The notes under the pieces are model-generated. The model was not told the DNA's origin and did not search any database. It was given only the letters and a program-made list of their open reading frames with translations. From a virus, in the IMG/VR virus record IMGVR_UViG_3300036772_000193, positions 1 through 32,912 of that record: DNA of 32,912 nucleotides; one strand, given 5' to 3'. Numbering within the stretch: position 1 is the first letter of the stretch; every line of letters starts with the position of its first letter. The translations under genes and the position numbers were made by a program. Shown here one piece after another: positions 502 through 26,407 of this stretch.

Positions 502-1139
502 TGCCGGAGATCGAGCGCGTCACGTACAACCCGCGCATTTTTGATGTTCGCAATGTCGAGCAGGCCAAGAATATCATCCTCACCCCGGAGATGGGCAAAT
601 CAAGCGCCTTCCGCTGGGAATGGGAGACGCCGTATCTCGTCGATTTGATCTCCGAGAAATGCGGCCTTACGCAAGACAGTTGGGTGCTCGACTTCGGTTG
701 CGGGATTGGGCGGCTCGCCAAGCCTCTCATTGAGAGACATGGGTGCAAGATCGTCGGTGTGGATATGGCGGCTTCGATGCGGGCGTTGTCGATGAGCTAT
801 GTCAGCTCGCCGAATTTCTTCGCAATCGCGCCAGGCATGCTGCCTGAATTGCCGATCCAGTTTGATCTCGCTCTGTGTGTGTGGACGTTGCAGCACTGCC
901 TCAATCCAATCGAGGAAATCAAGCTGATACGCGATGCTCTCGTTTTCGGCGGTGAACTATTTGTTCTTAATAACAACGGGCGCGCGGTGCCGACATTCGA
1001 ACACACCTGGGTCAATGACGGGATCGACGTAAAGACCCTCCTGCGCGACGCCTCTTTCGGGGAACTAGAGCTAGGCGAGCCGAAAATCGGCATCCAGGAC
1101 GCCGAGAAATGGTGCTTCTGGGGGCTCTATCGCGCGTGA
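501..1139 (+). CDS. Class I SAM-dependent methyltransferase
   Basis: A 212-residue protein with a clear Rossmann-fold SAM-binding motif I, VLDFGCGIGRL at residues 62-72, and an acidic motif II, GVDMAASM near residue 86, typical of class I methyltransferases of the Methyltransf_11/25 type. A motif-IV-like segment (DLALCVWTLQHC) and the post-motif region with a GGELFVLNN strand follow in the right order. The length fits a stand-alone small-molecule or sugar methyltransferase with no extra domain. The ATG overlaps the stop of the preceding frame by one base, and the next gene starts with GTG inside the stop (GTGA). The substrate cannot be told from sequence. Its place beside a GH16-like protein, and the second methyltransferase domain at 26408-29059, make a sugar or capsule substrate an attractive but unproven guess. 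Confidence 0.85.
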   Translation: MPEIERVTYNPRIFDVRNVEQAKNIILTPEMGKSSAFRWEWETPYLVDLISEKCGLTQDSWVLDFGCGIGRLAKPLIERHGCKIVGVDMAASMRALSMSYVSSPNFFAIAPGMLPELPIQFDLALCVWTLQHCLNPIEEIKLIRDALVFGGELFVLNNNGRAVPTFEHTWVNDGIDVKTLLRDASFGELELGEPKIGIQDAEKWCFWGLYRA

Positions 1140-1648
1140 ACCGATGGCTGACGCTGCCCATAATCATCGCGTTTTTTTCAACCGCAGCGGAGGGCAAGCC
1201 TCATTCGATAAACGGTGCATGCGGTAGTGCTGATGCCGTCCCGACAAGCGTTCAGCCGAGCACCAATCTCTGCTCGGCCGGAACGGCTAGTTCGGTTACG
1301 GGGAGCGGTCCTTGGTCTTGGAGTTGCCACGGCTCAAGGGGCGGCTCAACGGCGCAGTGCTCGGCTCCTTATGGCGCGCCACCCCCGCCGGTTCTGATGT
1401 TGAGCTTCTCTCCGCCAAATCCTTCCCTCCCGGAAACCTCGCCATTGGGTACGATTGTAGCCACAGTCACCGCAGCCTGGAGCGATGGAAGCGCCTTTAC
1501 TGGCGCATTGGGATTTGCCGGGCCTTATTTTGATGATGGTGGCACGTTTGCGCTTTCGGGCAATAAGGTCGTCGTGAGCCCTCTTGGGATGGGTCTTCTT
1601 GCTGATGGCGGCACTACTCAGTTTGTGACCATCAACGCAGTTCAATAA
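1136..1648 (+). CDS. Secreted protein with Cys-rich motif and Ig/cadherin-like domain
   Basis: I chose the GTG at 1136 because it gives a 4-base GTGA overlap with the methyltransferase stop and places a short basic segment plus hydrophobic core (LTLPIIIAFFSTAAEG) right at the N-terminus, a plausible Sec signal peptide; an ATG at 1109 would bury it. The mature part begins with a Cys-containing module (NGACGS ... NLCSAG ... WSWSC ... AQCSA), a motif common in exported bacterial and phage-encoded proteins. After a Pro-rich linker, residues about 84-170 form a domain with PxxPLGTxVAxV and DGSxFxGxLxF signatures. A related copy sits in the 1027-residue protein at 3473-6556. The function is unknown; export is inferred from the signal peptide and the Cys pattern. 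Confidence 0.7.
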   Translation: MNRWLTLPIIIAFFSTAAEGKPHSINGACGSADAVPTSVQPSTNLCSAGTASSVTGSGPWSWSCHGSRGGSTAQCSAPYGAPPPPVLMLSFSPPNPSLPETSPLGTIVATVTAAWSDGSAFTGALGFAGPYFDDGGTFALSGNKVVVSPLGMGLLADGGTTQFVTINAVQ

Positions 1649-1649
1649 T

Positions 1650-2723
1650 TTGAAAAATACAAAATGGGTCGCCGAACACCTGTACATAGGGTTCGTGGCG
1701 CTGCTGTTGTCGTTCTCATGCGCTGTCGCGCAATCGACATCGAGTAATCTGGCTATAACAGTCACCCCCTCGGCCGCTAATATGTCGCCGCCGACTGGCT
1801 ATACTGCGGGAAACCTGTACGCTGAGGACAATTTCAGTTCAACTTCGCTAGACACGACGAAGTGGAATAATAATGAAGGCGCTTACGCATATGGTAGAGC
1901 AGGGAACAACGGAAGTCTTCCTGCCCCGTACTCGGCTCAGAATTCTGGGAGCTTTTTTGTAGAATATTTTGATCCATACCCATATGGGTACAGTACTCAG
2001 CTTGTTGCGGGCCAAACATCATTACAAAGAGTTACAGCCAACTGCGGAACAGAGCCCCAATGTTTACTTATGACTGCCACGCAAAATACACATTTTAGTC
2101 CGTTCTATTGGGCCACTTCTGCGCTATCCAGTTATTCTACTGGAACAAATTTCCCCAGCATGCGCCTAACGGGCTGCACGAATGCTTGTTATTTTCAGAT
2201 TAGATCACAGATGCCGGACGCTCGATATGGTATGTGGCCTGCCATTTATTTTCTTGGTGATGGCTCTGCCTGCGCTGGGCAAGGCAATTGTGATGAAACT
2301 GATCTACATGAGGGTGGCTTTGTCACCACAAATGGTAGTGCTGCCGCGAATACGCTTATCCATAGTAATTGCCTCTGGGCATCAGGATGTAATAATGTTG
2401 GAAAGACGTTTACCTCTCCTTCTGATTTATCGACTGGTTATCATATCTATGGCGCAGAATATGTTCCTGGGCAAAGATGGTCTACTTATTTTGATGGAAC
2501 TATAGTTGGGCAATGGGCAACAAATTGTACTGGGTTGGTTAATTGTACGACGAGTAGCTTTGTACCAAGTCATGATTATGAAGTGATTATAGATTTTGAA
2601 GTCGCGTGCGGCACTGGTGAAACTGGATGTAGCTCGCCGAGTGGCTTCCGCACCACAACTGACGGAGTCCATAATGGCCCGTACTTCTATTACATCAACG
2701 ATGTGCAACTTTATCGTAAGTAA
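1650..2723 (+). CDS. Secreted GH16-like glycan hydrolase (putative depolymerase)
   Basis: A 357-residue protein with an N-terminal signal peptide (hydrophobic core IGFVALLLSFSCAVAQ, cleavage probably after Gln28). The GH16 jelly-roll signature is visible: MPDARYGMWPAIYFLG around 188-203, then DETDLHEGG, which fits the family's catalytic E-x-D-x-x-E pattern with Glu216, Asp218 and Glu221. GH16 enzymes cleave beta-1,3/1,4 glucans, agarose, carrageenan and related polymers; the substrate here cannot be told. Many Cys residues suit oxidative folding outside the cytoplasm. The only in-frame start giving the full signal peptide is the TTG at 1650, two bases after the preceding stop. The gene is clearly AT-richer than its neighbours, with many TAT, AAT and ATT codons, which points to recent transfer. 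The GH16 assignment is fairly firm; a role as capsule depolymerase is inference. Confidence 0.8.
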   Translation: MKNTKWVAEHLYIGFVALLLSFSCAVAQSTSSNLAITVTPSAANMSPPTGYTAGNLYAEDNFSSTSLDTTKWNNNEGAYAYGRAGNNGSLPAPYSAQNSGSFFVEYFDPYPYGYSTQLVAGQTSLQRVTANCGTEPQCLLMTATQNTHFSPFYWATSALSSYSTGTNFPSMRLTGCTNACYFQIRSQMPDARYGMWPAIYFLGDGSACAGQGNCDETDLHEGGFVTTNGSAAANTLIHSNCLWASGCNNVGKTFTSPSDLSTGYHIYGAEYVPGQRWSTYFDGTIVGQWATNCTGLVNCTTSSFVPSHDYEVIIDFEVACGTGETGCSSPSGFRTTTDGVHNGPYFYYINDVQLYRK

Positions 2724-2735
2724 GATTGCGAGAAC

Positions 2736-3476
2736 ATGGTAACCCGAGTAGGTGGCGGCTTCAGCAACAACTCCGGTGCAGGCGGCGTTGCGAGTCTGGC
2801 TCTTACCTACTCTCCTACAGCCTCCAATACGCTGTGCGTTACCTGCAAGGCCAGCATAAATACCGGCACGTTCGTCGTCGGGGACGTGACGGTCGCCGAC
2901 AACGCGACTGGAGGAAGCAGCACTTATGTAAATCCGACCGCCGGGTTCGCCGGCTCGGGTACGGCCGAGGGGGCCTGGGTGCTCTATTGCCAAAGTCTGA
3001 AGAGCGGCGCGACGTCGGTCACGATGACGATCGCCAATCATGTTGCAACGGCGGTTACCAGCATTGACATCACCGTCGACGAATACAACAGCGTCGGTCT
3101 TTTCGACGTGGCTATTATGAATCTTCAAGCTAGCGCGACCAACGCGACGGACAACATAACCAGCGGCAACCTGACGACGACGGCCGCTAGTGATTGGCTG
3201 TGGAGCCGGGCTTGGAACGATACTGGTGGCGGCGTGCTATCGGTCGGGACTGGTTTTACGCTGGGCTTTACGCCCTCGCCCGGAACCGCGTGGGGAGGTA
3301 CCGAGTACAAAACCTGCGGCGCGGCGGGGGCCTATGCCGCGACCTGGACCTACAGCATCACGGGCACGCGTACCTTTACCGCCGCGATGGCGTTTAAGCC
3401 AAGCGGCATCCAGACCACCCAGCCGCTAATCCTCACTGCAGGCACTTTCCAGACGGTAACGCGCACAGTCGGATGA
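2736..3476 (+). CDS. Beta-sandwich surface protein of unknown function
   Basis: 246 residues from ATG 2736, without an obvious signal peptide. Residues 10-225 follow a pattern I know from exported or surface-attached bacterial proteins and phage fibre modules: a strand-rich start (SLALTYSPTASNTLCV), a 'VTVADNATGGSSTYVN' segment, a 'VTMTIANHVATAVTSIDITVDEYN' like core, and an ending in AMAFKPSG. No enzymatic motif is seen. The last 16 residues (LILTAGTFQTVTRTVG) look like one unit of the short repeat that fills the following protein, and the stop overlaps that gene's ATG (ATGA at 3473-3476). The two may therefore have been, or still act as, one polypeptide or one complex. The function is unknown; a fibre or decoration role is inference from context. 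Confidence 0.65.
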   Translation: MVTRVGGGFSNNSGAGGVASLALTYSPTASNTLCVTCKASINTGTFVVGDVTVADNATGGSSTYVNPTAGFAGSGTAEGAWVLYCQSLKSGATSVTMTIANHVATAVTSIDITVDEYNSVGLFDVAIMNLQASATNATDNITSGNLTTTAASDWLWSRAWNDTGGGVLSVGTGFTLGFTPSPGTAWGGTEYKTCGAAGAYAATWTYSITGTRTFTAAMAFKPSGIQTTQPLILTAGTFQTVTRTVG

Positions 3477-6400
3477 CGCAATTCACAAAGACCGTCAGCA
3501 TCAGCGAGGGGCAGCACGCCTCACTGACCGCGTCCGGCCACATCGGCACCCTTGGCGATCCGCAGGCGGTTACCGTAATCCGGAGCGCATCCCATGCGCT
3601 CGCGATGACCCAGTCAGAAGCGATTTCGGCGCAGAAGCAGCTGACGCGACCAGCCGTAATCCTGTCTAGTCCCGAGGCCTTTTCGATCCCGAGAGCGATG
3701 GCGCACAATGTTGCGCCGTCAACGGCGGGGTTGGTAAGCGCAGGAAAGGCAATTGCCCGGGCGGTCATGGCGAGTGACGGGCAAAATCTAGCGGCGTTAC
3801 GCCGGACGGCGAGACCGCTTGCGCTTGCGATGGCTGAATCTCTTGTCCGTCTATTGACGCCGATCAAGCCATTCGCTCTGACTGACGGCGAGACTCTATC
3901 GGCGGCGCGGGGATATCCCAGGACGACAGCCCCCTTATCGCCATCATCTCTGAGCTTGTCGGAACTCAAGCTGTTCGGGCGGATCGTCAGTATCACCGAG
4001 GGTGAAATTGTCACCGCCGCCAAACAAACAGCAAAGGGTGTCTCCTTCGCGGATTCCGAGGCGATCAACCAAAGCGTGATCGCAAGATGGTCACGCTCTC
4101 TCGCCGCGGGTTCTCAACTCGGGTTCGTGCGGGTACCCGGGCGGCTGGCAGCATTTGCGGATCCGGCGACTGTGAGCGGCGTACAGAGACTTGTGATCGC
4201 GCGTTCGGCAAGTGTGCCGCAGGGCGAACTTGTTACGGCCAGCGCGCCGGCAATCCGCCTCTATGGCGCAAGCATCGCTGCGGCCATTCCGATAAATATT
4301 GTCCGGCGCGTCGCTCATGCGGTCAGCGTGGCGCAAGGCGCGGCGCTACTGACGGCAAAATTCGCAACCAAGACCATTAGCGCATCTCTGGCCGAACTCG
4401 TCGCGCTAGGACAGCAGACGGCCCACGGCGCGCTGCTCTTGTCAACCAACGCGCTTGCCGCCGGGCGCAAGATTGGTCATCGCCAAGGACTTAGCCAAAG
4501 CCAGATCGTCACGCATGGCCGCGCGAACGCCAAGAATGTGACTTCGGCATTGCCTGAGGCCCTGGCTTTGCTGCGCGCCGGCACCTTCGGACTTCTCCAG
4601 AATTTCAGCCAGCCGAGCATTCTGCGGGTTGTCAAGAACAACATGCCGGCAATTGCTTTTGCCTCTGGGTCGACGATAATAATCGTGCGGCAGTTTACCA
4701 AGGCGATCGCACAAATCATAAGCAATACAGCTATCGCTATAAGGCAGACATCAGCGTTACGTAGCGTCTCTCTGGTGTCCGGGAACGCCGCTGTCGCCAT
4801 CACATTCATAAGGCGGGCCGGGGTCGTCGTTTCGCTCGTGCGTAGTCCGCAGCAAATCCAGCTGTTCCTGGCGAGAACGTTGACTCATCCGCTGAGTTGG
4901 TCGCAGGGAAACGTCTTGTCGAGCATAACCGTGCCGATCAAGCACACATTTTTGCTCGCCAATCAGATCGCCACTACCGTCAACCGGCAGTTGGGATCCA
5001 CAATCGGTGTCGTGCAAGCGGCGCGGATAATTACCCGGGCAGTCGGCACGCTCGCTAGTTCCGGATCTACCCAATTGCTATCGGTGTTTACAGCGCGGAC
5101 CGGTCCGACGCTGGGTTTGGTTGGGCTGCTGCAGCCGGAGTCAACGTCGGCATCGCGGCAAGCGACACTCCAAAAGACGATTATCCTTCCCGCCGATCCG
5201 GTTATTGCATTCAACCCGCCGGCCCCGTCCATCCCGAACACAACCCCGTTAGGTGCCAGAGTCGCGCAGATCATCGTCACAATGACCGACGGGAGTCCGT
5301 TCGCCGGGCAATTGAGTTTCGGGCCGCCGAATCAGAATGACAGTGGGATTTACGCGATCGACAACAATATCGCGCCAGTCACCTATACCGGCAACAACTT
5401 TATCACGATCAACCCTACTGGGCCTGGGGTTGGAGCGGAAGGCGGCAATATCGACAACATTACCGCCGTCGCGACGGTCGTGCCGACGCGTATGTTTAAT
5501 ATGATCTCATCGACACGGCAGAGATTTGCCAGCGCGCATCCCGTGCTCGTGCTGCTTTCGTCACCGCAATCCATGGCGATGCGGCGCTTCGTCTCCAAGG
5601 CTCTCGCGGCCCTCACACCGCAGTTGTTGGCGGCACAGAACGGAGCGGCGCATTTCAGAACATTGGCGACGGCGCATGCGCAAATCTCAGCGGTCGCGCG
5701 CGCGGCGATTAAAAACCTGCCAGCGGTAGCGCTGGGGCAAGTCGTGGCCAGCGGCTCACGCATTGGCAAGACAATCCGCGCGTTCAGCGCGGCGGTCGCG
5801 TCGACCAACAAGCAAAGGTTTAAAGCGGCGGTTTTCAATATAGCTGAGGCATTAACTGCGGCGGGGCAGCGCACTACGGGTAGACAGTCGGTCTCGCTCG
5901 CCTCTGGGCAATCGGCGGCTCTCGTGCGCCAGCCGCAGAAACTCATCCTTCCGATGCTGGGTTCGCAGATCTCGCGAATCATGGGAATTGCTCGCGCAGT
6001 GGTTCTGGCGATGCCGGAAACGCTCATCGGTGGTCGCCTCAAATTATCGATCCTCGCATTCTCGCACGCGCAGAGCGTTACCGCGCTGCGGCAGTCCGCT
6101 CACCAGCGGACGATCGCAATGGTCAGTTCGCTTTTCCAAACCTTGAGGCAGGTTCACGTTTTCTATTTGAATGTGACGCAAACGCTGGTACAGGCGAACG
6201 TCAATCGCATCGGCAAACTAGTCAGGGTATTGGCGCCCTATATCCTCGCGCGGACGACCGGTCGTTTCGTGGCGATAGCGGCGGGTATCGCGCAAAGCGT
6301 ATCGGTCGCGACTGTAAATCTCAGGCATGGCGGTGTTCAGGCCGTTATTGCACAGACCCAGCGGGTTACGAGCATCGCCAGCGCGGTTCGACCGTGGCCC

Positions 6401-6556
6401 CATGGGTTTGATCCAACTGCGATGATCGCGTCGGCGCAGCGGTTAGTGGTCGATATGGCCTCTGCAATCGCGCCGATCCTTCCGACGTCTGCGGTGTTGC
6501 GATTGGGTCGCGCGCTGCGACCACTTTATGCGAGACGTCGCTTTATCAAGCGATGA
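3473..6556 (+). CDS. Giant short-repeat protein with embedded Ig-like domain
   Basis: 1027 residues composed almost entirely of degenerate units of about 18-20 residues. By eye I count roughly 45-50, each approximating (V/I/L)-x-(L/F)-(A/S)-x-(S/G)-x-x-(Q/E)-x-(V/L)-x-x-x-(R/K)-x-x-x-(K/R). Examples are VSITEGEIVTAAKQTAKG, VSVAQGAALLTAKFATKT and ISASLAELVALGQQTAHG. The array is broken once, at about residues 576-670, by an Ig/cadherin-like domain (PSIPNTTPLGARVAQI, then DGSPFAGQLSF) related to the C-terminal domain of the protein encoded at 1136-1648. The C-terminus is basic (LYARRRFIKR). There is no signal peptide and there are no Cys-rich parts. Such periodicity suggests a solenoid or an elongated fibre. 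The start overlaps the previous stop (ATGA), as the stop does the next start. I know no function for this family. Confidence 0.75.
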   Translation: MTQFTKTVSISEGQHASLTASGHIGTLGDPQAVTVIRSASHALAMTQSEAISAQKQLTRPAVILSSPEAFSIPRAMAHNVAPSTAGLVSAGKAIARAVMASDGQNLAALRRTARPLALAMAESLVRLLTPIKPFALTDGETLSAARGYPRTTAPLSPSSLSLSELKLFGRIVSITEGEIVTAAKQTAKGVSFADSEAINQSVIARWSRSLAAGSQLGFVRVPGRLAAFADPATVSGVQRLVIARSASVPQGELVTASAPAIRLYGASIAAAIPINIVRRVAHAVSVAQGAALLTAKFATKTISASLAELVALGQQTAHGALLLSTNALAAGRKIGHRQGLSQSQIVTHGRANAKNVTSALPEALALLRAGTFGLLQNFSQPSILRVVKNNMPAIAFASGSTIIIVRQFTKAIAQIISNTAIAIRQTSALRSVSLVSGNAAVAITFIRRAGVVVSLVRSPQQIQLFLARTLTHPLSWSQGNVLSSITVPIKHTFLLANQIATTVNRQLGSTIGVVQAARIITRAVGTLASSGSTQLLSVFTARTGPTLGLVGLLQPESTSASRQATLQKTIILPADPVIAFNPPAPSIPNTTPLGARVAQIIVTMTDGSPFAGQLSFGPPNQNDSGIYAIDNNIAPVTYTGNNFITINPTGPGVGAEGGNIDNITAVATVVPTRMFNMISSTRQRFASAHPVLVLLSSPQSMAMRRFVSKALAALTPQLLAAQNGAAHFRTLATAHAQISAVARAAIKNLPAVALGQVVASGSRIGKTIRAFSAAVASTNKQRFKAAVFNIAEALTAAGQRTTGRQSVSLASGQSAALVRQPQKLILPMLGSQISRIMGIARAVVLAMPETLIGGRLKLSILAFSHAQSVTALRQSAHQRTIAMVSSLFQTLRQVHVFYLNVTQTLVQANVNRIGKLVRVLAPYILARTTGRFVAIAAGIAQSVSVATVNLRHGGVQAVIAQTQRVTSIASAVRPWPHGFDPTAMIASAQRLVVDMASAIAPILPTSAVLRLGRALRPLYARRRFIKR

Positions 6557-6933
6557 GGATCTCTCCGCCGTTCGACCCGATCGAGGTCGGCGAAATCGAC
6601 GACTTCGGGTTTGACTTTACCAAGGACTGCCCCCCTGGGGTTTATATTCTAGACACGGCATGGAGTTGTCGGATGAGCCCCTTTAGCCACGGGAGTGATC
6701 CTGCGCCGCAATCCCGCGTCTCGGGTGGCCGCGGCGGCAAGGGACGGGCGGTGACGACGGTCGCGATCGGCGACGGAGCGCCGGTCGCCGGTCAATGGTC
6801 GGTTGCGACGATCGGGCCAATGCCCGCCTCGGCAGCGGGTGGAGACTACATTCTCGACGCTGTTGCCTATCTCAGCGACACCCGACAAGTCGCTTACTAT
6901 GCGATTCTACGGTGTGTCTTACCAGGACAATAG
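6553..6933 (+). CDS. Conserved small phage protein, unknown function
   Basis: 126 residues from an ATG that overlaps the previous stop (ATGA). The arrangement of an N-terminal 'FDPIEVGEIDDFGFDFTKD' acidic segment, a central strand ending in TAWSCRMSP, and a C-terminal hydrophobic pattern (DYILDAVAYLSDTRQVAYYAILRCVLP) matches small proteins often found among structural genes of proteobacterial siphophages. These look like small beta-sandwich domains. No catalytic motif is present. The gene is followed, after ten bases containing a good GGAG, by the next ORF. A minor virion protein is the most likely role, inferred from position only. Confidence 0.7.
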   Translation: MRISPPFDPIEVGEIDDFGFDFTKDCPPGVYILDTAWSCRMSPFSHGSDPAPQSRVSGGRGGKGRAVTTVAIGDGAPVAGQWSVATIGPMPASAAGGDYILDAVAYLSDTRQVAYYAILRCVLPGQ

Positions 6934-7470: not shown

Positions 7471-7707
7471 ATGGCCATTATCAAGACGCTAGCCGCACTC
7501 AATGAGACGACGCCGCGTTATCATATGATCGACGCGCACGGCAATCACCACACGCTGAAGCAAATAGCGGTTCCTGTCATCGGTGCATCAGCGCCGGCCG
7601 CGCTCGTGCTTGAAAGCGGAGGCAGTAGGGTCGTTCTGTCGCAAACCAACGCTACGGACCTGGCGACCGCTCTCACCACCTTCGGGACCAACGGGGTCCT
7701 CTCCTAG
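7471..7707 (+). CDS. Small phage protein, unknown function
   Basis: 78 residues from ATG 7471, preceded by a GAGGAC sequence at 7457-7462 that overlaps the upstream stop and gives a fair ribosome binding site. The product is mixed: a basic/polar start (MAIIKTLAALNETTPRYHMI) then a compact region ending in LATALTTFGTNGVLS. Nothing in it points to a catalytic function. It ends two bases before the ATG of the protease gene, so it is most likely co-transcribed and coupled with it. Its size, place and lack of low-complexity sequence make it a real gene, probably a minor head or assembly protein; that role is inference. Confidence 0.65.
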   Translation: MAIIKTLAALNETTPRYHMIDAHGNHHTLKQIAVPVIGASAPAALVLESGGSRVVLSQTNATDLATALTTFGTNGVLS

Positions 7708-7708
7708 A

Positions 7709-9730
7709 ATGTCGCTTCCCCTCGATCATCTGGCCGCAATGGCAACATCGCTCGCCGATAAAAGTGGTCGTTACCAGGCTTTTGAGGGCCCTAAGCGCCT
7801 CTATGGCTTGATCGAGAAGGTCGAAGAGGTCGGCGACGGCACAATCAAAGTTCACGGCATCGCCTCAACTGAGGCCGAGGATGATCAAGGCGAGGTAGTA
7901 CGCGCATCGGCGATGCGGGAGGCGATCCCGACTTACATGAAATTTGGTGCAGTGCGTGAGATGCACGGATTGACTGCCGCAGGTCGGGCGCTTGAGTGTA
8001 ACTGCGGTGAGGACGGCATCACCCGCATGGTCGCGCACGTCGTCGATCCGGTAGCCGTCCTGAAGGTCAAAAATAGGGTCTACAATGGATTTTCGATCGG
8101 CGGACGCGTCGTGGAACGCGAAGCTGGCAATGCCCGTAACATAACGAGATTGGCGTTGCATGAGATCTCGCTCGTCGATCGGCCAGCCAATCCGCAGGCG
8201 ACAATTGATCTGTGGAAATTAGGAGAAAGCTCAATGCCTGACGGACTGGGCGTAATGCAAACCGCCTTTGCCGAGGCAATGGCCAAAACCCAGCAAGTAT
8301 GGCGCTGCAGTGATTCGACCCATACTCACGCCAAGAAAGAGGATGCGGCCGGCTGCATGGCTAAGGCGGGACAGTCGACGGCAAAGACCGGGCTGCCGAA
8401 CACGCCGCCGATCAAGCCGGGCGAGCCGCCCGGCGCACCCAATTCCGAGGGCAATTTCGATGGCGATGGCGACAGCGACGATAACAGCGAGTCTGCCGAG
8501 TCTGCTGGCGGAGGGTTCAGTCCCGAGAGCGAGGCTAATCGCCATGCCGATTTTGCTGGCAAGAAGGGCGACGGTGACGGTCCATCCAAGCCCTATGGCG
8601 ACGTAACCTACGCTGACCCCGGGTATCGCAACAATAAGAAGCGCTACCCGATAGACAGCGAAGATCACGTGCGTGCGGCATGGTCGTACATCAACATGCC
8701 GAAGAACGCGAAGAAGTACACCTCTCAGCAGCTTAACAGTATTAAGTCGAAGATCCGTGCTGCCGCCAAGAAACACGGGGTCGAGATCGCGGCCAAAGTC
8801 GCTGATGTCGGCGATGAGAGCGAAATCGCCCATATGGCGGCCGAGCTCGTGCGGGTTGTCGAGATGCTCGGCGATCTAACGATCGAGAAGGCGGGACGTC
8901 GCCAATCGGCGGCCGACCATTTCTTGATGAATGTGGCTCACGACGCCATTGGCAAGCTCGGCGAAGGCCAGTGGTGCGCCAAGGCGGGAGGCAACGCCAC
9001 GCAGGACACGGGCGGCAACGCCACCCATCCGGCGCCGTCTGCATCGCCTCCCGCCGAGAGTTTCACACCGGGATCAAATGCAACGCAAGACACCTCGAAA
9101 CGCGGCTCGCGGCATTCCTCCGCGACCCTCACTCATCTCAAGGCGGCGCATGACAGCATGTGCAAGGCCGGCGCGATGTGCCCGGTACACGGCAATATGG
9201 GAAAGACTTCAACCACGGAGGATAGCGCGATGAGCGCGGCCGAATCTCTATTTAGCACGACGCTCACCGGTGAGCCTGACGAAGTGGCCAAGGCGCTCAA
9301 GAAGGCGCTGAAGAAGAACGACAAGATGGAAAAGCAGATGGGCGAAATGGCCCATCAGATGCAGACAATGCAGTTGCATGTCGAACATATGGCCAAGCAA
9401 TCCGGCACGCCCCCGCCTCCGCCCCCTGCCCCTGTCGAAAAAGAGGGCAAACTCAAGAAGCAGCTGGGCTCGATGAATGAGGCGATACAAGCAATCGCAG
9501 AAAGGGTCGAGCAGATCGCCAAGCAACCTATGCCCGGTATCGCCAGCCATCTGCCGCCGGGTATTATCGACGTTTCCAAAGCGCAGGACGGCCGGCAAGC
9601 GCCGCCACCTCCTGAGCAAACTCAAGCCGCAGAGGAGATTGCAAAGCGTTGGGAAAGCATGACTCCCGACGAGAGATTTGCTGCGAGCTACGCAGTGTCG
9701 CGTTTGCGACCATACACGCAGCAGCGATAG
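7709..9730 (+). CDS. Prohead serine protease (XkdF/S78-type) fused to scaffold-like C-terminus
   Basis: 673 residues from ATG 7709. Residues 30-170 resemble the XkdF-type putative phage serine protease (Peptidase_S78_2): GIASTEAEDDQGEVV, REMHG with candidate catalytic His86, YNGFSIGGRV with candidate Ser129, and LHEISLVDRPANP, which ends the fold. Such proteases mature the procapsid by cutting scaffold and capsid protein. Residues about 290-365 contain a YADPGYRNNKKRYPIDSEDH segment followed by a helical, basic stretch, recognisable as a DUF6582-like domain. The C-terminal third has a CKAGAMCPVHG knuckle-like motif, a Lys/Met-rich coiled coil and a Pro8 run, as in scaffolding proteins. Two in-frame ATGs (8234, 9230) carry good Shine-Dalgarno sequences and may give shorter scaffold products. 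The gene lies directly upstream of the capsid gene, the usual order. Confidence 0.85.
   Translation: MSLPLDHLAAMATSLADKSGRYQAFEGPKRLYGLIEKVEEVGDGTIKVHGIASTEAEDDQGEVVRASAMREAIPTYMKFGAVREMHGLTAAGRALECNCGEDGITRMVAHVVDPVAVLKVKNRVYNGFSIGGRVVEREAGNARNITRLALHEISLVDRPANPQATIDLWKLGESSMPDGLGVMQTAFAEAMAKTQQVWRCSDSTHTHAKKEDAAGCMAKAGQSTAKTGLPNTPPIKPGEPPGAPNSEGNFDGDGDSDDNSESAESAGGGFSPESEANRHADFAGKKGDGDGPSKPYGDVTYADPGYRNNKKRYPIDSEDHVRAAWSYINMPKNAKKYTSQQLNSIKSKIRAAAKKHGVEIAAKVADVGDESEIAHMAAELVRVVEMLGDLTIEKAGRRQSAADHFLMNVAHDAIGKLGEGQWCAKAGGNATQDTGGNATHPAPSASPPAESFTPGSNATQDTSKRGSRHSSATLTHLKAAHDSMCKAGAMCPVHGNMGKTSTTEDSAMSAAESLFSTTLTGEPDEVAKALKKALKKNDKMEKQMGEMAHQMQTMQLHVEHMAKQSGTPPPPPPAPVEKEGKLKKQLGSMNEAIQAIAERVEQIAKQPMPGIASHLPPGIIDVSKAQDGRQAPPPPEQTQAAEEIAKRWESMTPDERFAASYAVSRLRPYTQQR
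8221..8236 (+). promoter_or_regulatory. Internal ribosome binding site and ATG in protease gene
   Basis: AGGAG at 8221-8225 is followed by an 8-base spacer and an in-frame ATG at 8234 (residue 176), exactly after the protease fold ends (DRPANP ... LWKLGESS). Initiation here would make a separate protein of about 498 residues lacking the protease domain. Placement at the domain border supports function, but expression is not shown by sequence. Confidence 0.55.
9217..9232 (+). promoter_or_regulatory. Second internal ribosome binding site and ATG (nested scaffold)
   Basis: GGAGG at 9217-9221 is followed by an 8-base spacer and an in-frame ATG at 9230 (residue 508). The product, about 166 residues, starts MSAAESLF and contains the Lys/Met-rich coiled coil and the Pro-rich C-terminal part, which looks like a stand-alone scaffolding protein. 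It parallels the nested Nu3 scaffold inside lambda gene C. Confidence 0.6.
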
Positions 9731-9755
9731 CTGAACACCGCATCCCCCAATGACC

Positions 9756-9778
9756 ACCCGGCTTTTGCCGGGTTTTTT
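9756..9778 (+). terminator. Rho-independent terminator between protease/scaffold and capsid genes
   Basis: A 7-bp perfect stem (ACCCGGC / GCCGGGT) closes a TTTT loop at 9756-9773 and runs straight into a six-T tract (9773-9778). It lies in the 67-base gap between the protease stop (9730) and the capsid ATG (9798), which otherwise holds only the capsid ribosome binding site. Partial termination, or RNA end protection, here could change the ratio of scaffold to capsid message. Confidence 0.85.
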
Positions 9779-9797
9779 ATTGGGCGGAGGACATGAC

Positions 9798-11483
9798 ATG
9801 AACACCAACCAAGAGACCCTCGGCATGCTCGGTCAACCGACGCCGCAGATGCGAGACCAGATTATCAAGGCGCAATCGGCGCCGAGCACTGATCTCGCCA
9901 AGTCGGTAGCGGGAAACCCGCTCTTTGCTGGCCGTGCTGGCAACATCGGACCATTCAGCCAGTTCTCGGAAGAGACCTTAAAGGCGCTCGATGCGCTCGG
10001 TCTCGGCGAGTTCGCCAATATGGCGAAGTCGATCACGACCACCACTGGTCTTGTCGCCTACGATCTGCAGGCGCCAGCCAAGAACCTCTATCCCTTTTAC
10101 GCGCCGATCCGCAACTTTCTGCCGCGCGTCGGCGGCGGCGTCGGCACCGCGACGAACTGGCGGCAAGTCAACGCCATCATCGGGTCCGGCTTCGATAATA
10201 TCGCGTGGGTGCCGGAAGGCCAGCGCTCTGGCCGGATGAGCTACAACACGTCCAACCGCTCGGCCAGCTATGTGACGATCGGTGAGGAAGACGCGATCAC
10301 CTACGAAGCCATCAACGCCGCCCGCACCTTCGAGGATTTGCAGGCGACGATGGTGTTCCGCCTTCTGCAGAAGATGATGCTGAAAGAGGAGATGGCGCTG
10401 CTTGGCGGTAACGCGACTTTGGCGCTAGCCACACCCACGGCCCCGACCATGGGTACCACAGGTAGCTCGACCGGCGTCACCTTGCCGAGCGCAACCTATT
10501 ACGCACAGGTGGCGGCGTTGACGATCGAAGGTTGGAACAACGCGGTCCGCACCGCGCCGATGTCGGCCCCAACGTCGATCTCGGTGACCGGTGCCGATAG
10601 TCAGTCCTATACCGTCAATGGCGGCACCGGGCCGATCAGTCTCCTGTCAACCGGGCAAGCCTCGGGCGGCAATGGGCTGACCGCGACGACCCCGGCCGTC
10701 CAGGGCGCCGTGGCTTATGCGTGGTATGTCGGCACCACCAACTCGGCCGGCACAGGTCGATTGCAGGCGATCACAACGATCAACAGCGTCGTCTTGACGG
10801 GCGCGTTGAACGCCTCCGCGCAGCTCGCCTCGGCTTTGTCGGCTGACTTTTCGGCCAACCCGAACTATGGCTTTGATGGCCTGTTGACGACCGCGCTCAA
10901 GGCCGGCTCTGGCGCCTATCTCAATCCATTGGCCACGGGCACGGCCGGCACTGGATCGACCTTGACCCCGTCCTATCGCGGATCGGTAGTCGAGATCGAT
11001 ACGATGCTACGCACGATGTGGGACACTAACCTTTTGTCGCCGACCATCCTGTTTGTCAACTCGCAAGAATTGACGAACATCACGACCAAGGTCTTGCAGG
11101 GCGGCTCAGGGTCGTCCGTCGCGCCATTGCTGCGCTATGATACTCCCGCAGACGGTGGCGATTATCGCAACTTCACGGCGGGCGGCGTGATCAGCACGTA
11201 TTATAATCCTTATGCGCCGCCCGATGCCGGCATGATGATTCCGGTGAGAATTCATCCGAAGGTTCCGCCGGGAACCATTATTGGCTGGGCACAGAATCTC
11301 CCGGTTCAGTACCAGTCCAACGAAGTGCCGAATGTTGCCGAAGTCAAGACCCGGCAGGACTACTATCAGATCGATTGGCCGATCGTCACTCGTCAGAGAG
11401 GCGTCGGTGTCTATGCCGAAGAGGTTCTGGCGGTTTATGCCCCGTTCGCAATGGGCGTCATCAGCAATATCGCGAACGGTTGA
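9798..11483 (+). CDS. Major capsid protein with inserted Ig/FN3-like domain
   Basis: 561 residues from ATG 9798, preceded by GGAGG at 9786-9790 with a 7-base spacer; this is the strongest ribosome binding site in the window, as expected for the most abundant virion protein. The flanking parts look like an HK97-fold capsid: an N-terminal helical arm (residues 40-80), a segment with NFLPRVGGGVGTATNW and WVPEGQRSGRMSYN, the helical spine with LLQKMMLKEEMALLGGN near 190-205, then after the insert SYRGSVVEIDTMLRTMW, LFVNSQELTNI and a C-terminal QIDWPIVTRQRGVG ... EVLAVYAPFAMG region. Between residues about 212 and 350 lies a Thr/Ser/Gly-rich strand-forming domain (YYAQVAALTIEGWNN, AYAWYVGTTNSAGTG) resembling an Ig or FN3 module. 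It is longer than a typical 300-400-residue capsid protein because of this insert. Confidence 0.88.
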   Translation: MNTNQETLGMLGQPTPQMRDQIIKAQSAPSTDLAKSVAGNPLFAGRAGNIGPFSQFSEETLKALDALGLGEFANMAKSITTTTGLVAYDLQAPAKNLYPFYAPIRNFLPRVGGGVGTATNWRQVNAIIGSGFDNIAWVPEGQRSGRMSYNTSNRSASYVTIGEEDAITYEAINAARTFEDLQATMVFRLLQKMMLKEEMALLGGNATLALATPTAPTMGTTGSSTGVTLPSATYYAQVAALTIEGWNNAVRTAPMSAPTSISVTGADSQSYTVNGGTGPISLLSTGQASGGNGLTATTPAVQGAVAYAWYVGTTNSAGTGRLQAITTINSVVLTGALNASAQLASALSADFSANPNYGFDGLLTTALKAGSGAYLNPLATGTAGTGSTLTPSYRGSVVEIDTMLRTMWDTNLLSPTILFVNSQELTNITTKVLQGGSGSSVAPLLRYDTPADGGDYRNFTAGGVISTYYNPYAPPDAGMMIPVRIHPKVPPGTIIGWAQNLPVQYQSNEVPNVAEVKTRQDYYQIDWPIVTRQRGVGVYAEEVLAVYAPFAMGVISNIANG

Positions 11484-16100: not shown

Positions 16101-18266
16101 ATGGCCGGCGTCGACGACATCGTCGTAAACATCGTCGCTCAGGTCGAGGGCTTACTCAGTGGTCTACAAACTGCAGCGCACGAAATCGAGGGGCTGACCG
16201 CTCCGGTTCAGAATCTCGCCGAGACCTTGGGTAAGCTGAGCGAAGCCTTCGCCGCAGCGTTTGCGGTAGAAAAAATCGCGGAATTCGCCGAGAAGTTTGC
16301 CGAACTCGGCGAGAAGGCTCTTAACACGGCGTTTATCCTTGGTTCGACCGTAGAGGAATCCGATCGCGTCACGACCGCAATGCGGATCCTCGGGGTCGAT
16401 ACCGACACCGCGTCGCGCACGCTGCAGTTCCTCGGCCGCAGCATTCAGCAATCGCTGGTCGACGGCAATAGCCGCGCCGCCGTGGGTTTCCGAAACCTCG
16501 GCATCTCGATGGAGGAGGTGCGCGCCAACGCTAACAGCCTCACCGGGATGTTGACCTTGATTATCGAAAAGGTCAACGGGCTCCAACAGGCAGGATTGCA
16601 GAGCGCGGGCGCGATGCGCGATGTCCTCGGTCGCGGAATGCAAACCCTGGCACCGTTATTGCGCGCCACCGCCGAAGAATTCCAAGCAGCGCAGCACGCC
16701 GCCGAGGCGCATACTCAGGCGATGGTCGAAAATGCTGGCGGTATGGACAAAGTCGCGCAGCAGATGCATACGCTCGGCGTCAATGTCGAGACTTTCGGCA
16801 TTAAGATGTTCGGGCTATTCCGGCAGGACATCGAGGGTGTGATCCACTCGCTCAACAATCTGCTGTCGATCGGCGAATCGGTCATTGGTTGGCTCAAATA
16901 TCTCGGAGATGCGTTCAACCAGGTAAACAAAGATGTCACCGAGGCGGGGCACGCAGTAAACAATTTCATCCGAGAGATGGCCGGCTTGGGGCCGGCTGCC
17001 TATGCGGACATTCCGCCCAAGGCAGATGAGGGACCGCACGGCACCCGGCAGATCGGCACGGAAAAAGCCGGCAAAGGCGCCAAAGGCGCCAAGGGCACCG
17101 ACGACCGGATGTCCGAATGGCGCGACGCGCTCAAACAGCAATTGCAGGACGAGCAGAATTTCCTCGGCGATTCCAAAAAGGAGGAGCTCGCCTACTGGCA
17201 GGACAAGCTGCAACAAGTCGGCACCGGCACGAAGGAAGACATCAAACTACGGCGCGAGGTAAACGCCGAGATCTTCTCGCTGCAGAAGTCGCTCGCCAAG
17301 CAGACCGAGACTGACGCCATCGCCGAGCAGAGCTACCAGCAAAAAGTCAACGACCAGAAACTCTCGTCAGAACGAACGCATCTCCAAAGTCTGGAAAACC
17401 TTGGCAAGATCACCGCACAACAGCGGCTCGCCACCGAAAAAGGTCTGATCGATCAGGAGATTGCCGCCGACGAAGAATACTATCACAAGAAAGAAGCTGC
17501 CGCGCAAGGTGACCTGCGTGAGATCACCAAGCTTGAGCAGGAAGAATATCTACAGCATCAAAAGCTCGTCGATCAGAAAGCGGCTCTCGACGATCAGATG
17601 CTCGAAGAATCGCACCGTACATGGATGCAGATCGGCGACTCCATCAGTCAAGCGGTTGATCGCAGCGTCCTGGGAATAATCCAAGGCACTCAGACGATTG
17701 GCCAAGCGTTTCAGAAGCTTGGTCAGTCAATTCTCGAGGAGTTCGTCAATCTCGGCATCAAGAAGGCCATGGCCTCGCTGTGGAGCAGTCTTGGTGATGC
17801 GCTAGGCATCGGCGGTGCTCTCGGTGGCAGCAGCGCCGGAGGTGGCGGCATAGGCAGCTTGCTCTCTGGCCTGCCGTTGATCGGGAGTTTATTTGGTGGC
17901 GGTGCCGGGGCTGCGGGCGGTCTCGGCGGCGGGTTGACGGAGAGTCTATTCGGGACCGCTACGATTCTTGAGAAAGGCGGGATCATCCCATCGGCGGCGG
18001 CCGGGTGGCAAGTGCCCGGCAACACGATGGCTATGCTGCACAAAAACGAGATGGTCTTGCCATCGCATATCAGTCAGGGCTTTCAGGACATGTTCTCTGG
18101 TCGTGGTGGCGGCGGCGGCGACATCCATATTCATGCGATCGACACACAGTCCGGCGCGCAGTTCCTCATGCAGCACGGCTCGGCGATCTCGCAGTCCTGG
18201 CGCAATGGCGGGCAATCCGGCAATTGGTCGCCGCGGATGCTCTCGCAGGGCGGCCGCTATCCTTGA
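16101..18266 (+). CDS. Tail tape measure protein
   Basis: 721 residues from ATG 16101, one base after the previous stop. The N-terminal third is helical (SGLQTAAHEIEGLTAPVQNL, then a long heptad region), the middle contains GDSKKEELAYWQDKLQQVGT and long Glu/Lys/Gln-rich coiled coil, and residues about 570-620 are Gly/Ala-rich and hydrophobic (SSAGGGGIGSLLSGLPLIGS), as in the membrane-active part of many tape measures. The C-terminus carries the usual ILEKGGIIPSAAAGWQVPG ... LHKNEMVLPS ... IHIHAIDTQSGAQF pattern. As an upper bound, with about 0.15 nm per residue, the tail would be near 108 nm. This is moderately short for a siphophage, in line with a GTA-like tail. Confidence 0.9.
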   Translation: MAGVDDIVVNIVAQVEGLLSGLQTAAHEIEGLTAPVQNLAETLGKLSEAFAAAFAVEKIAEFAEKFAELGEKALNTAFILGSTVEESDRVTTAMRILGVDTDTASRTLQFLGRSIQQSLVDGNSRAAVGFRNLGISMEEVRANANSLTGMLTLIIEKVNGLQQAGLQSAGAMRDVLGRGMQTLAPLLRATAEEFQAAQHAAEAHTQAMVENAGGMDKVAQQMHTLGVNVETFGIKMFGLFRQDIEGVIHSLNNLLSIGESVIGWLKYLGDAFNQVNKDVTEAGHAVNNFIREMAGLGPAAYADIPPKADEGPHGTRQIGTEKAGKGAKGAKGTDDRMSEWRDALKQQLQDEQNFLGDSKKEELAYWQDKLQQVGTGTKEDIKLRREVNAEIFSLQKSLAKQTETDAIAEQSYQQKVNDQKLSSERTHLQSLENLGKITAQQRLATEKGLIDQEIAADEEYYHKKEAAAQGDLREITKLEQEEYLQHQKLVDQKAALDDQMLEESHRTWMQIGDSISQAVDRSVLGIIQGTQTIGQAFQKLGQSILEEFVNLGIKKAMASLWSSLGDALGIGGALGGSSAGGGGIGSLLSGLPLIGSLFGGGAGAAGGLGGGLTESLFGTATILEKGGIIPSAAAGWQVPGNTMAMLHKNEMVLPSHISQGFQDMFSGRGGGGGDIHIHAIDTQSGAQFLMQHGSAISQSWRNGGQSGNWSPRMLSQGGRYP

Positions 18267-22152: not shown

Positions 22153-23096
<944 letters not shown>

Positions 23097-23097
<1 letters not shown>

Positions 23098-26000
23098 TGG
23101 CGTGGAAGCTTTTATCGTTTGTTTTCGCGACGGCTCTGCTTGTCAATACGGCGCAGGCTCAGAACGTCTTTAGCGATGACGTGCAAATGTGCTCCGGGCA
23201 TCCGTGGATAGACGTGCGTTGCAACGGCGCCCTCGGCGACGGCAACAACGACGACACGAGCGCGATCAACACGACGATTTCTGCTGCCATTACAGCCTCG
23301 GTTCCTGTCTATTTTCCGGCCGGGACATATAAAGTCACCAGCAAGATTACCATCGATTACCAGGGGATATCCGGCAATGGTCTTCAAATCATCTCGTCGG
23401 GCGCGACTGTGGACGGGCGATCAATCGCGTCGGGAAACGTCCTGCAATTGATCTGCTCTGGCGGCACGACTGGAACTCCCGCCGTCTGCAATCATCTCCG
23501 GATCGCCGGATCCCTCACCGTGTCCGGCAATGGCGCCGGATATGTCGTCGTTCTTGGTAAAACCGACTTCTCCGATCAGCACAACGCCGCCCGAATCGAA
23601 CACCTCGTCGTCACGAACAACGGAACCGGCGGCGCGATCCAAGCAAACTATCTGACCGATGGCGACCTTTGGCTCTCCGGCAGCACTGCGGGCGGATCCG
23701 CGAGCGTCGGCGCGGTGGCTCTGGAGCAGGTTCAGGCCAGCAAGATCGGCGGCTGGGGCTCCGCTGCAGGAGCGAGCGCTCCGGCTCTTCTTGTCGAGAA
23801 CGGCGCTTCGGTGGGCAATGCAGTCACGGGTTTTGCATACGACCCGAACAGCGCTACCTGTGTCTCGATTACGACTGCATCCGCGCAGCGCAACGCCTGG
23901 GTTGCGCCTTATTTTCCATGCGTGACTGCAGTCAACGCTCCGGGCCCGGCCAATCAGAACGCATTTGTCGGCCCGACCTTCGCCGGCACCAATCTCGGGC
24001 CGACATCGGGCGGCGTTGCCATAATCGGCCGCGGAAGCCTGAATCGCTTCGTCGCTCCCTCCGTTGCAAGCTACACCGCATTCGGCGTTGATGACGGAAC
24101 GATCTTTTCGGCCGCGAACGCCATCGGCCCTGCGACCCAGTTCACCGCCGCATCCTTGCCGATCACTCTGCCCACCCCGGCTCAGGTCGGCGTCGGATGG
24201 TCGGCCGGTTTTGTCAGCGACAACAATAAGGCGGTCGTTCTGACCGCACCCGCCAGCAGCAAAATCCTGCTCGGCTCACAGCAATTCACGACCTTGATTG
24301 TGGGCGCATCGGGGACTTCAATCGGTTTCGAGACTGCGGTTTTGGAAAGCGATGGAAGCAACTTCCGTGTCACGCACCTCAGCCAAGGCACGGCCCTTCT
24401 CAACGGCGCACAGACCACCTTCCCAGCTCGCTGGATTTTCCCTGGTGGGCCGGGCTATCAGGCAACCTTGGAAGACAATGCCAATGTTATTTCGAGCGCC
24501 GCTACTTCCGCTAGCCTCGCAGTGACGTTGCCGCCGACGAACACCATTCCGGTGGGCTGGATGGTGGCGGCGGTTAGTGACGCGAGTCGGCCTTTAAGTC
24601 TAGCAATCAACAGTACGAACGGTGGCACTATTACTTCCAAATCGGGAGCGACTCTCTATTCGATTGCCATCGGCGCCGGGTCACCGACCACACTACAGTT
24701 CGATGGGACGACATTCCGGGTTGTGGTCGATATTCATGGCTCACAAGTAACGCCGATGGATTGGGGGTGCGTCGGAGACGGCGTAACCGATGATACGGCT
24801 TGCGTTCAAGCGGCAATCAATGGAGCCGCGACGGCGGGGGTTACGCTGACATTCGATGGTCAGCATCTCTACAAGACCTCGTCGACGGTAACGATGTCTA
24901 CGCCTGGCCGGATAGAGGGGCAATACCGATATGGTGAATGGGTTGCAAATCAACCGACCGGCCCCGGAGGGGGAGTAATTGGTTGCACGTCTGGTATTCT
25001 CAACACGTCCAATGGCAATGTTTTATCAGTCACTGCTGTATCGGCGACTGTTCGCTATCTGTGCATTCAAGCATCTACCAGCAATTCTACGCAGGCAACG
25101 GCAGGTGCGGCAATGGCGTTTCAGCCGCCTAGCCTAGTGACCTACCAGGCTGGCGTCGACGTTGAATTCAACACTATTATTAGACCGTATGACGGCATTA
25201 CCATCAACGGTATCGCGAAATCTGTGGGTTGTTGCGGCCAGGGCAGCGCGGCAGACGGCGCGACATTCAGCAACAATACGATTATCAATCCAGCCGATAT
25301 CGGCATCTCGGTTGGCAAGAATACTGCTGCTGGAGTATCCGTTGGTCTTACGATGGTTGATAATACCATCATCTGCGGCTCGAATGGGACGATACGAGGA
25401 GTCGGTGTCGCGCTGTACGATGGGGGCATCAACTACGACGGGACTCAGAACGGTCCTTTCGGGTGCAATATTGGTTTTGAAATAATCCCTGGTACAATTT
25501 CGGGCGTTGGGCAGAATGCGCAGCTGTATGCGAGGGGAGTTCTTGGCGACAGCAGCATCACATATGGTTTCTTGCTCCGGCCGCAAACGTCTCTAGGCGC
25601 TGTGGAGTTTTCGGAGATCAACGAGGGTTGGGTCGGCGCGGCCAACACCACCACTTCCGTTCCGGTACTTATCAGCAATATCAACGGGGGCATCATCCAA
25701 GGCGTGAAATTCGTGGGTGGTTTCTACCATTCCAGCACAAATCAATCCGTCCCCGTCATAGACATCGAGGGCAATTCTTCGGGCACCGGATCACTGAGAA
25801 ATATCGGCATTATCGGGACGGAGATCGACTGTTGGGGTGGCGGTGTGTGCTCCGCGCCTCTGCTGAAGATCAACGGCACAGGGCCAGGGCAGCCTGCAGC
25901 TATTGTCATTAGCGGCAACCATATCGGCAACAATCACCAAGCTGGCACCTCGTTCGGGACGACTGGCCTTGCGATAACGGGTGGTGTCCCAGGATACATA

Positions 26001-26393
26001 TCCATCACCGGAAACGACTTCAGCGATTTCGGCAATCCTAACACCCCGATCGCATTTACCTCTAATAATACTGACTATCGAATCCTAGCTAGCGGCAATG
26101 CGGGGATTGATGATTTGTGCAACGATGTCGTGGCCTCGGCCGCAACGGTTGCTATTCCGAATATGGACAGCTGCTTTCATCTGAGCGGCACCACTACGGT
26201 TACCGCAATTGGCAATCTCTACACCGCCAAATCCGCGACGATTATCGCCGACAGTGGCCTGACATTGAGTACCGGGGGGCCTGCGAAAAGCGGCGCGCAA
26301 GCTCCATTTTGCAATGGGGTCACGCTCACGGCAGCGCAAGCGGCGCAAATTCGGTACAACTCGATTGGCGCCTGTGTCTCGGTTATGCAATAA
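23097..26393 (+). CDS. Tandem beta-helix tailspike / pectate-lyase-like protein with signal peptide
   Basis: 1098 residues from ATG 23097 (TAATG overlap); the longer frame from 22716 overlaps the collagen gene and is rejected. Residues 1-22 (MAWKLLSFVFATALLVNTAQ, AQ) look like a Sec signal peptide. At about 40-85 lies a Pectate_lyase_3 start (NGALGDGNNDDTSAINTTIS, then VYFPAGTYKVTSKIT) and a parallel beta-helix pattern follows. Residues about 355-433 and 455-547 hold two similar strand-rich modules, each with LP ... GW ... SDG/FDG-xxFRV. A second pectate-lyase start (WGCVGDGVTDDTACVQAAIN) begins near 555 and leads into a second helix with NNTIINPAD-like rungs. The C-terminal 90 residues form another fibre-like module. 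Such proteins usually degrade host polysaccharide. The second helix (24900-26050) looks AT-richer than its surroundings. Confidence 0.85.
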
Positions 26394-26407
26394 AAACGGT
26401 GGCTTCA

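Follow-up and report, generated by a model that had tools for sequence, protein, structure and literature searches.

This report concerns P0001, a large repeat protein encoded in the DNA of an uncultured, soil-type phage (IMG/VR virus record IMGVR_UViG_3300036772_000193); all 32,912 bases of that stretch make up what we call the window. A reading of the letters alone (the sequence-only reading) had described P0001 as a 1027-residue protein of about 45-50 degenerate units of 18-20 residues, encoded in a phage head operon just before the protease and suited by its unit size to a solenoid or a long thin fibre. We found that its gene is interlocked with that of a small protein predicted to be a fibre adaptor, and that P0001 is probably a fibre shaft. 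The features that carry this argument are the following.

2736..3476, + strand: gene E, 246 residues, beta-rich head domain, proposed fibre head or tip
3473..6556, + strand: repeat protein P0001, 1,027 residues, ATG start, no internal stop, about 45-50 degenerate units
3491..5188, + strand: first repeat block of P0001, residues 7-572, about 30 units
5189..5476, + strand: immunoglobulin (Ig)-like domain splitting the array, residues 573-668 of P0001
5534..6553, + strand: second repeat block, residues 688-1027, about 18 units, with a basic tail at its end, ...LRLGRALRPLYARRRFIKR
6553..6933, + strand: gene G, 126 residues, Ig-like beta-sandwich of the GP4 Gp77-type fibre adaptor, assigned from fold and relatives
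1109..1648, + strand: small protein with a signal-like N-terminus and an Ig-like domain as in P0001 573-668

A basic repeat protein with an 18.6-residue period

The open reading frame (ORF) at 3473-6556 was confirmed on the + strand without an internal stop. A codon-usage measure trained on six clear phage genes gave +0.136 bits per codon for the sense frame and put the remaining five frames all below zero, and P0001 is therefore a gene and not a chance frame; gene E scored +0.184 on the same measure. Overlaps are kept with both neighbours: the stop of gene E overlaps the P0001 start (ATGA), and the start of gene G overlaps the end of the P0001 gene by 4 bp. The product, of about 107 kDa, lacks Cys and is strongly basic (isoelectric point 12.0; 96 R+K against 28 D+E).

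Self-comparison bore out both the number and the size of the units. The Fourier power of R/K over the whole protein reached 30.1 at 18.6 residues (95% shuffled maximum 8.3), with 20.0 at 18.6 residues in residues 1-570 and 12.4 at 18.8 residues in 670-1027. In windows of 150 residues the period was clear over most of 1-450 and 676-975, and weak or absent in 376-750. An unseeded segmentation scored 382, compared to 272 +/- 12 for shuffled sequences (maximum 298), and a hand-seeded one gave 45 units of 18 residues, a few of them inside the Ig-like domain. The units, 18-20 residues long with a mean of 18.6, are about 20% alike to one another. The claim that nearly the whole protein is repetitive holds for the two blocks; it fails for residues 573-668, where the sequence-only reading had overlooked the Ig-like domain. 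This domain is 40% identical to the ORF at 1109-1648.

A profile built from 41 units placed hydrophobic residues at positions 2 (73%), 4 (71%) and 10 (71%), more weakly at 12-13 and 16. Position 6 is D/E/Q/S and position 8 E/Q/N; between them, position 7 (G/P/A/S) is never hydrophobic and has the top turn propensity, and beta propensity is maximal at positions 2, 4 and 10. The basic residue expected before each next unit was found at position 18 (R/K/H), and position 14 is basic as well (R/K in 66%). The unit thus reads as a strand-turn-strand-like pattern with basic corners at 14 and 18, from which a beta-type fold may be predicted.

Two known architectures are built from comparably short units. 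The adenovirus fibre shaft is a triple beta-spiral with a 15-residue motif, and the left-handed beta-helix has 18 residues per coil, made of [LIV]-G-x4 hexapeptides. P0001 shares with both the short units, two or three hydrophobic strand segments and a G/P turn, and its hydrophobic positions 4, 10 and 16 are spaced by 6. The P0001 unit is longer than the 15 residues of the triple beta-spiral, with which it is compatible in sequence pattern; the monomer model had a predicted local distance difference test score (pLDDT) of 36.5. Unlike the left-handed beta-helix, the profile has no G after its hydrophobic residues, and its mean period is 18.6.

Searches for relatives of the repeat were negative. 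P0001 matched no Pfam family up to E 10, in agreement with the earlier statement that collagen, TPR, LRR, pentapeptide and haemagglutinin repeats do not fit. There was likewise no match in PHROGs up to E 10, none in NCBIfam or in 50,697 phage records, and none of note among PDB sequences. A two-unit profile recovered P0001 itself at E 4.5e-101 and no other ORF across 176 related loci, and a search of about 1,500 Pseudomonadota genomes with a gapless unit profile gave no convincing hit; its two short matches, at L179 and L190 (one in a 228-residue frame, one across stops), were judged to be chance. P0001 and its two halves were also used in pattern scans against 2.9 million viral contigs; no relative was retrieved, and since these scans use short exact or near-exact peptides, distant relatives may escape them. 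Repeats of the type 'ISVTSAQVASLVR' were looked for in phages and plasmids as well as in viral contigs, gave no match and were set aside. The homologues in other phages that the sequence-only reading had hoped for were therefore not found by profile or pattern, and by sequence the repeat belongs to no described family.

Gene G and the genes that precede it in related phages

The location of P0001 in the head operon before the protease was confirmed; gene G, overlooked earlier, lies between the two. Gene G has 58 relatives among the ORFs of the collected loci, and the Pfam family Gp77 (PF23148) was matched by 8 of 18 aligned family members (best E 1.3e-5); the G domain of locus L119 scored 22.1 bits against a cut-off of 27. 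Modelled together with 17 relatives, gene G reached a pLDDT of 86.6. Its top structural match in the PDB was 8jou_B (Z score 9.4, root-mean-square deviation 2.0, 89 of 89 residues), from an entry titled 'Fiber I and fiber-tail-adaptor of phage GP4', and Foldseek placed the same chain second (E 1.3e-3). We infer that chain B is the adaptor, because its 89 residues are close to the Pfam model length of 84. The next matches were neck and collar chains of Agrobacterium phage Milano (Z 9.3-7.8), and other Ig folds scored at most 7.5. Gene G, as modelled, has the GP4-type fibre-tail-adaptor fold, and its binding to fibre and tail is putative.

The arrangement resembles that of Fibre I and the Gp77 adaptor in GP4, a Ralstonia podophage, in the G fold, the Pfam match within the G family and the fibre-like gene adjoining an adaptor gene. 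The window phage differs in possessing a tape measure as well as siphophage tail-tip genes, and in carrying its fibre and adaptor genes in the head operon; the sequence match to Gp77 is weak for the G relatives, and P0001 matches no PDB chain. The Milano collar protein gp13 forms pentadecameric (15-fold) rings round the neck; it is free of fibres and includes an additional decorating domain (PMC10491603), and gene G is about half its size. For the DEV fibre, a 15:12 collar resembling the GP4 one has been reported (PMC10925440).

Related phages were gathered with the capsid gene as query; their array proteins are listed here beside further genes of the window.

1650..2723, + strand: GH16-like secreted hydrolase of the same fibre cluster, below the Pfam cut-off
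7700..9730, + strand: prohead protease (S78/HK97-type), which closes the slot
9750..11483, + strand: major capsid protein candidate (phrog_13692), the query
L131:15776-17845, L052:1346-3559, L087:8465-10039, L133:14783-16621 and others: proteins with 14-residue arrays

This yielded 362 matches in metagenomic viral contigs, and others in Alphaproteobacteria and a Frateuria; Rhizobium sp. AC27/96 and Methylocapsa sp. S129 are examples of bacteria with a related prophage. The nearest relatives, with major capsid proteins 87% and 76% identical, come from sample 3300047160, on contigs that break off close to the slot. The gene order in these relatives is portal, at least one surface-protein gene, small G, prohead protease and capsid protein, and we refer to the position before G as the slot. 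A basic C-terminal motif, S-x-x-R-L-L-x-S-P-G-R-x-R-I-L, is common to 37 distinct slot proteins; G lies within 1.6 kb in 28 of these and within 70 bp in 20. Their N-domains differ from one another (Gly-rich, jelly-roll-like or of the 'GGRDYSTLAAW' type) and are adhesin-like. Arrays of a tandem 14-residue unit, D-A-x-x-P-I-E-W-L-A-x-x-R, were found in 19 proteins (253 units, with 165 successive pairs exactly 14 apart), and this repeat too had no Pfam match; most of these proteins carry the conserved C-terminal motif as ..ERLLRSPGRIRILAGPGS.HPLRG. Mean pairwise identity in the relatives drops from 0.46 over residues 1-60 to 0.31 within the array, and stands at 0.51 over the final 30. In L119 (7784-9310) a 14-15-residue array and a Gp77-like G domain occupy one ORF, where elsewhere they are two adjacent genes. 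Because the motif recurs across several N-domain types, and because of the L119 fusion, the C-terminal end of the slot proteins is suggested to face the virion.

At five loci (L107:3107-4573, L125:7155-8696, L115:3562-5244, L130:7470-9083 and L078:3700-5298) the N-terminus of the slot protein begins with TIGSGGRDYSTLAAW or similar and is not Gly-rich, as if tips had been swapped on one shaft type.

The P0001 gene stands in the corresponding place, directly before G and ahead of the protease. Slot proteins with 14-residue arrays likewise mostly lie directly before G, are built of degenerate short repeats and have E/Q-hydrophobic-R at similar spacing; L052 shares with the window the 4-bp overlap between array gene and G. 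At L145/L180 the Ig-like domain of P0001 recurs twice, at 46% identity, within the array of the slot protein, whose gene lies upstream of a weak match to G. The link between P0001 and these proteins is thus one of position, gene overlap, adaptor and Ig-like domain, and kinship in sequence is no more than possible.

Proposed role of P0001 and competing explanations

Given that its neighbour G is a predicted adaptor, and given the nature of the pre-G genes in related phages, we read P0001 as a collar or tail fibre shaft; it is likely that this shaft is made of an undescribed short beta-type repeat and is held, probably at the neck or tail, by the Gp77-type adaptor. P0001 would form the long shaft of a siphophage host-binding fibre, each short beta unit offering a hydrophobic strand, a D/E/Q-G/P-E/Q turn, a second hydrophobic strand and basic corners. 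By stacking or intertwining, the units would build a thin rod, probably trimeric, with the Ig-like domain as its single interruption. The gene G adaptor would hold the rod on the virion, likely within a ring at the neck or tail. Towards surface glycans the rod may display adhesin or hydrolase modules of its own cluster, namely the gene E head domain, the Ig-like domains and, perhaps, the GH16-like enzyme; its basic ladder would be expected to prefer an acidic polysaccharide or lipopolysaccharide. Of the two shapes first proposed for P0001, the long thin fibre stands as the best reading, and a solenoid fold is hypothetical. The sequence-only reading is, as a whole, partly supported.

Several results weigh against the fibre-shaft reading. 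The window G alone has no Pfam Gp77 match, so that its link to the family runs through its relatives and its fold. AlphaFold yielded no usable model of the array (residues 171-428 and four other segments, at the low pLDDT given above; model discarded). The C-terminal motif of the relatives is lacking: a hidden Markov model (HMM) of 20 of them scored P0001 at -2.2 bits, a value equalled by 1,140 of 2,000 shuffled sequences. Alignment of the 18.6-residue with the 14-residue unit profile was not significant (p 0.07) and is suggestive only. P0001 is very basic whereas the arrays of the relatives are D/E-rich, and gene E and P0001 are split whereas the relatives keep N-domain and array in one ORF. 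The missing motif and the unit alignment raise the possibility that the usual slot protein was replaced; P0001 would work like the 14-residue slot proteins but might be a replacement rather than a descendant. A likeness by eye between the C-termini of P0001 and the L131 protein (LGR.LR.L..RR) was dropped after the HMM test.

The same shaft might be anchored to capsomers and not to the neck or tail, as a capsid-attached head fibre or decoration. Its gene does lie before the protease and capsid genes, and alphaproteobacterial phages with long fibres on the capsid are known, 7-7-1 among them (PMC12796354). The G fold finds its match in the GP4 fibre-tail adaptor and the Milano neck collar, not in a capsid protein, and we regard capsid attachment as unlikely. 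The location before the protease, together with the basic composition and the lack of Cys, would also suit an internal head protein: an Arg-rich repeat protein that goes into the prohead and either binds or condenses DNA or serves as a scaffold, with possible processing by the protease. However, the slot genes of the relatives encode adhesin-like N-domains and D/E-rich arrays beside a fibre adaptor, in one case fused to it, and phage proteins with Ig-like inserts are typically exposed ones, which makes an internal role quite improbable. A decaying fibre gene whose repeats drift without function would explain the low likeness of the units and the failure to find repeat relatives, but it is very hard to reconcile with a single 3-kb open frame in sense-frame codon usage, a strict 18.6-residue phase over many units and the overlaps kept with both neighbours. 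Finally, the tape measure, named in the sequence-only reading as a match that would refute it, is the ORF at 16101-18266 (phrog_2276, E 1.4e-18), with siphophage tail-tip genes also downstream; P0001, which has no PHROG match, is therefore not the tape measure.

A bolder form of the fibre-shaft reading is possible but doubtful. P0001 would be a new beta-repeat rod, its units of about 18.6 residues and its one edge lined by a basic ladder, and an interchangeable shaft: in this siphophage lineage, acidic 14-residue and basic 18.6-residue shafts, unrelated in their repeats, would plug into the same Gp77-type collar adaptor, with a C-terminal anchor and a variable adhesin tip at the N-terminus. 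A C-terminal anchor with an N-terminal tip is the reverse of textbook phage fibres.

Other genes of the window and significance

At the junction with gene E (3398-3476), the split from P0001 could reflect translational coupling or an assembly frameshift. A repeat unit seen by eye at the end of gene E, PLILTAGTFQTVTRTVG, scored 1.2 with the position weight matrix, under the quartile range of P0001 units (median 5.2), and is tentative; kinship between the N-domain of L031 and gene E was not accepted (E 0.02, a one-sequence comparison).

A class I methyltransferase gene (501-1139) lies within the fibre cluster. Further along, two collagen-like G-P-T repeat proteins (22159-23097 and 29065-30897) are probably further fibres, and a long pectate-lyase-like protein (23301-26393; weak PF12708 match), similar to a sequence at L010:93-3116, is likely a depolymerase spike. 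One protein of the tail-fibre region (26402-29059) combines glycosyltransferase-2-like, TPR and methyltransferase matches. The window has no Rfam match and no tRNA gene.

How far and how stiffly a phage reaches out to recognise its host is set by the fibre shaft, yet degenerate repeats of this kind go unnoticed by profile libraries and in phage annotation. A positional handle for finding and naming such shafts is provided by the slot ahead of a Gp77-type adaptor, and with two repeat types in one slot, the exchange of shafts can be put to the test. Should the relatives be anchored by their conserved C-terminus, this lineage would have fibres of reversed polarity.

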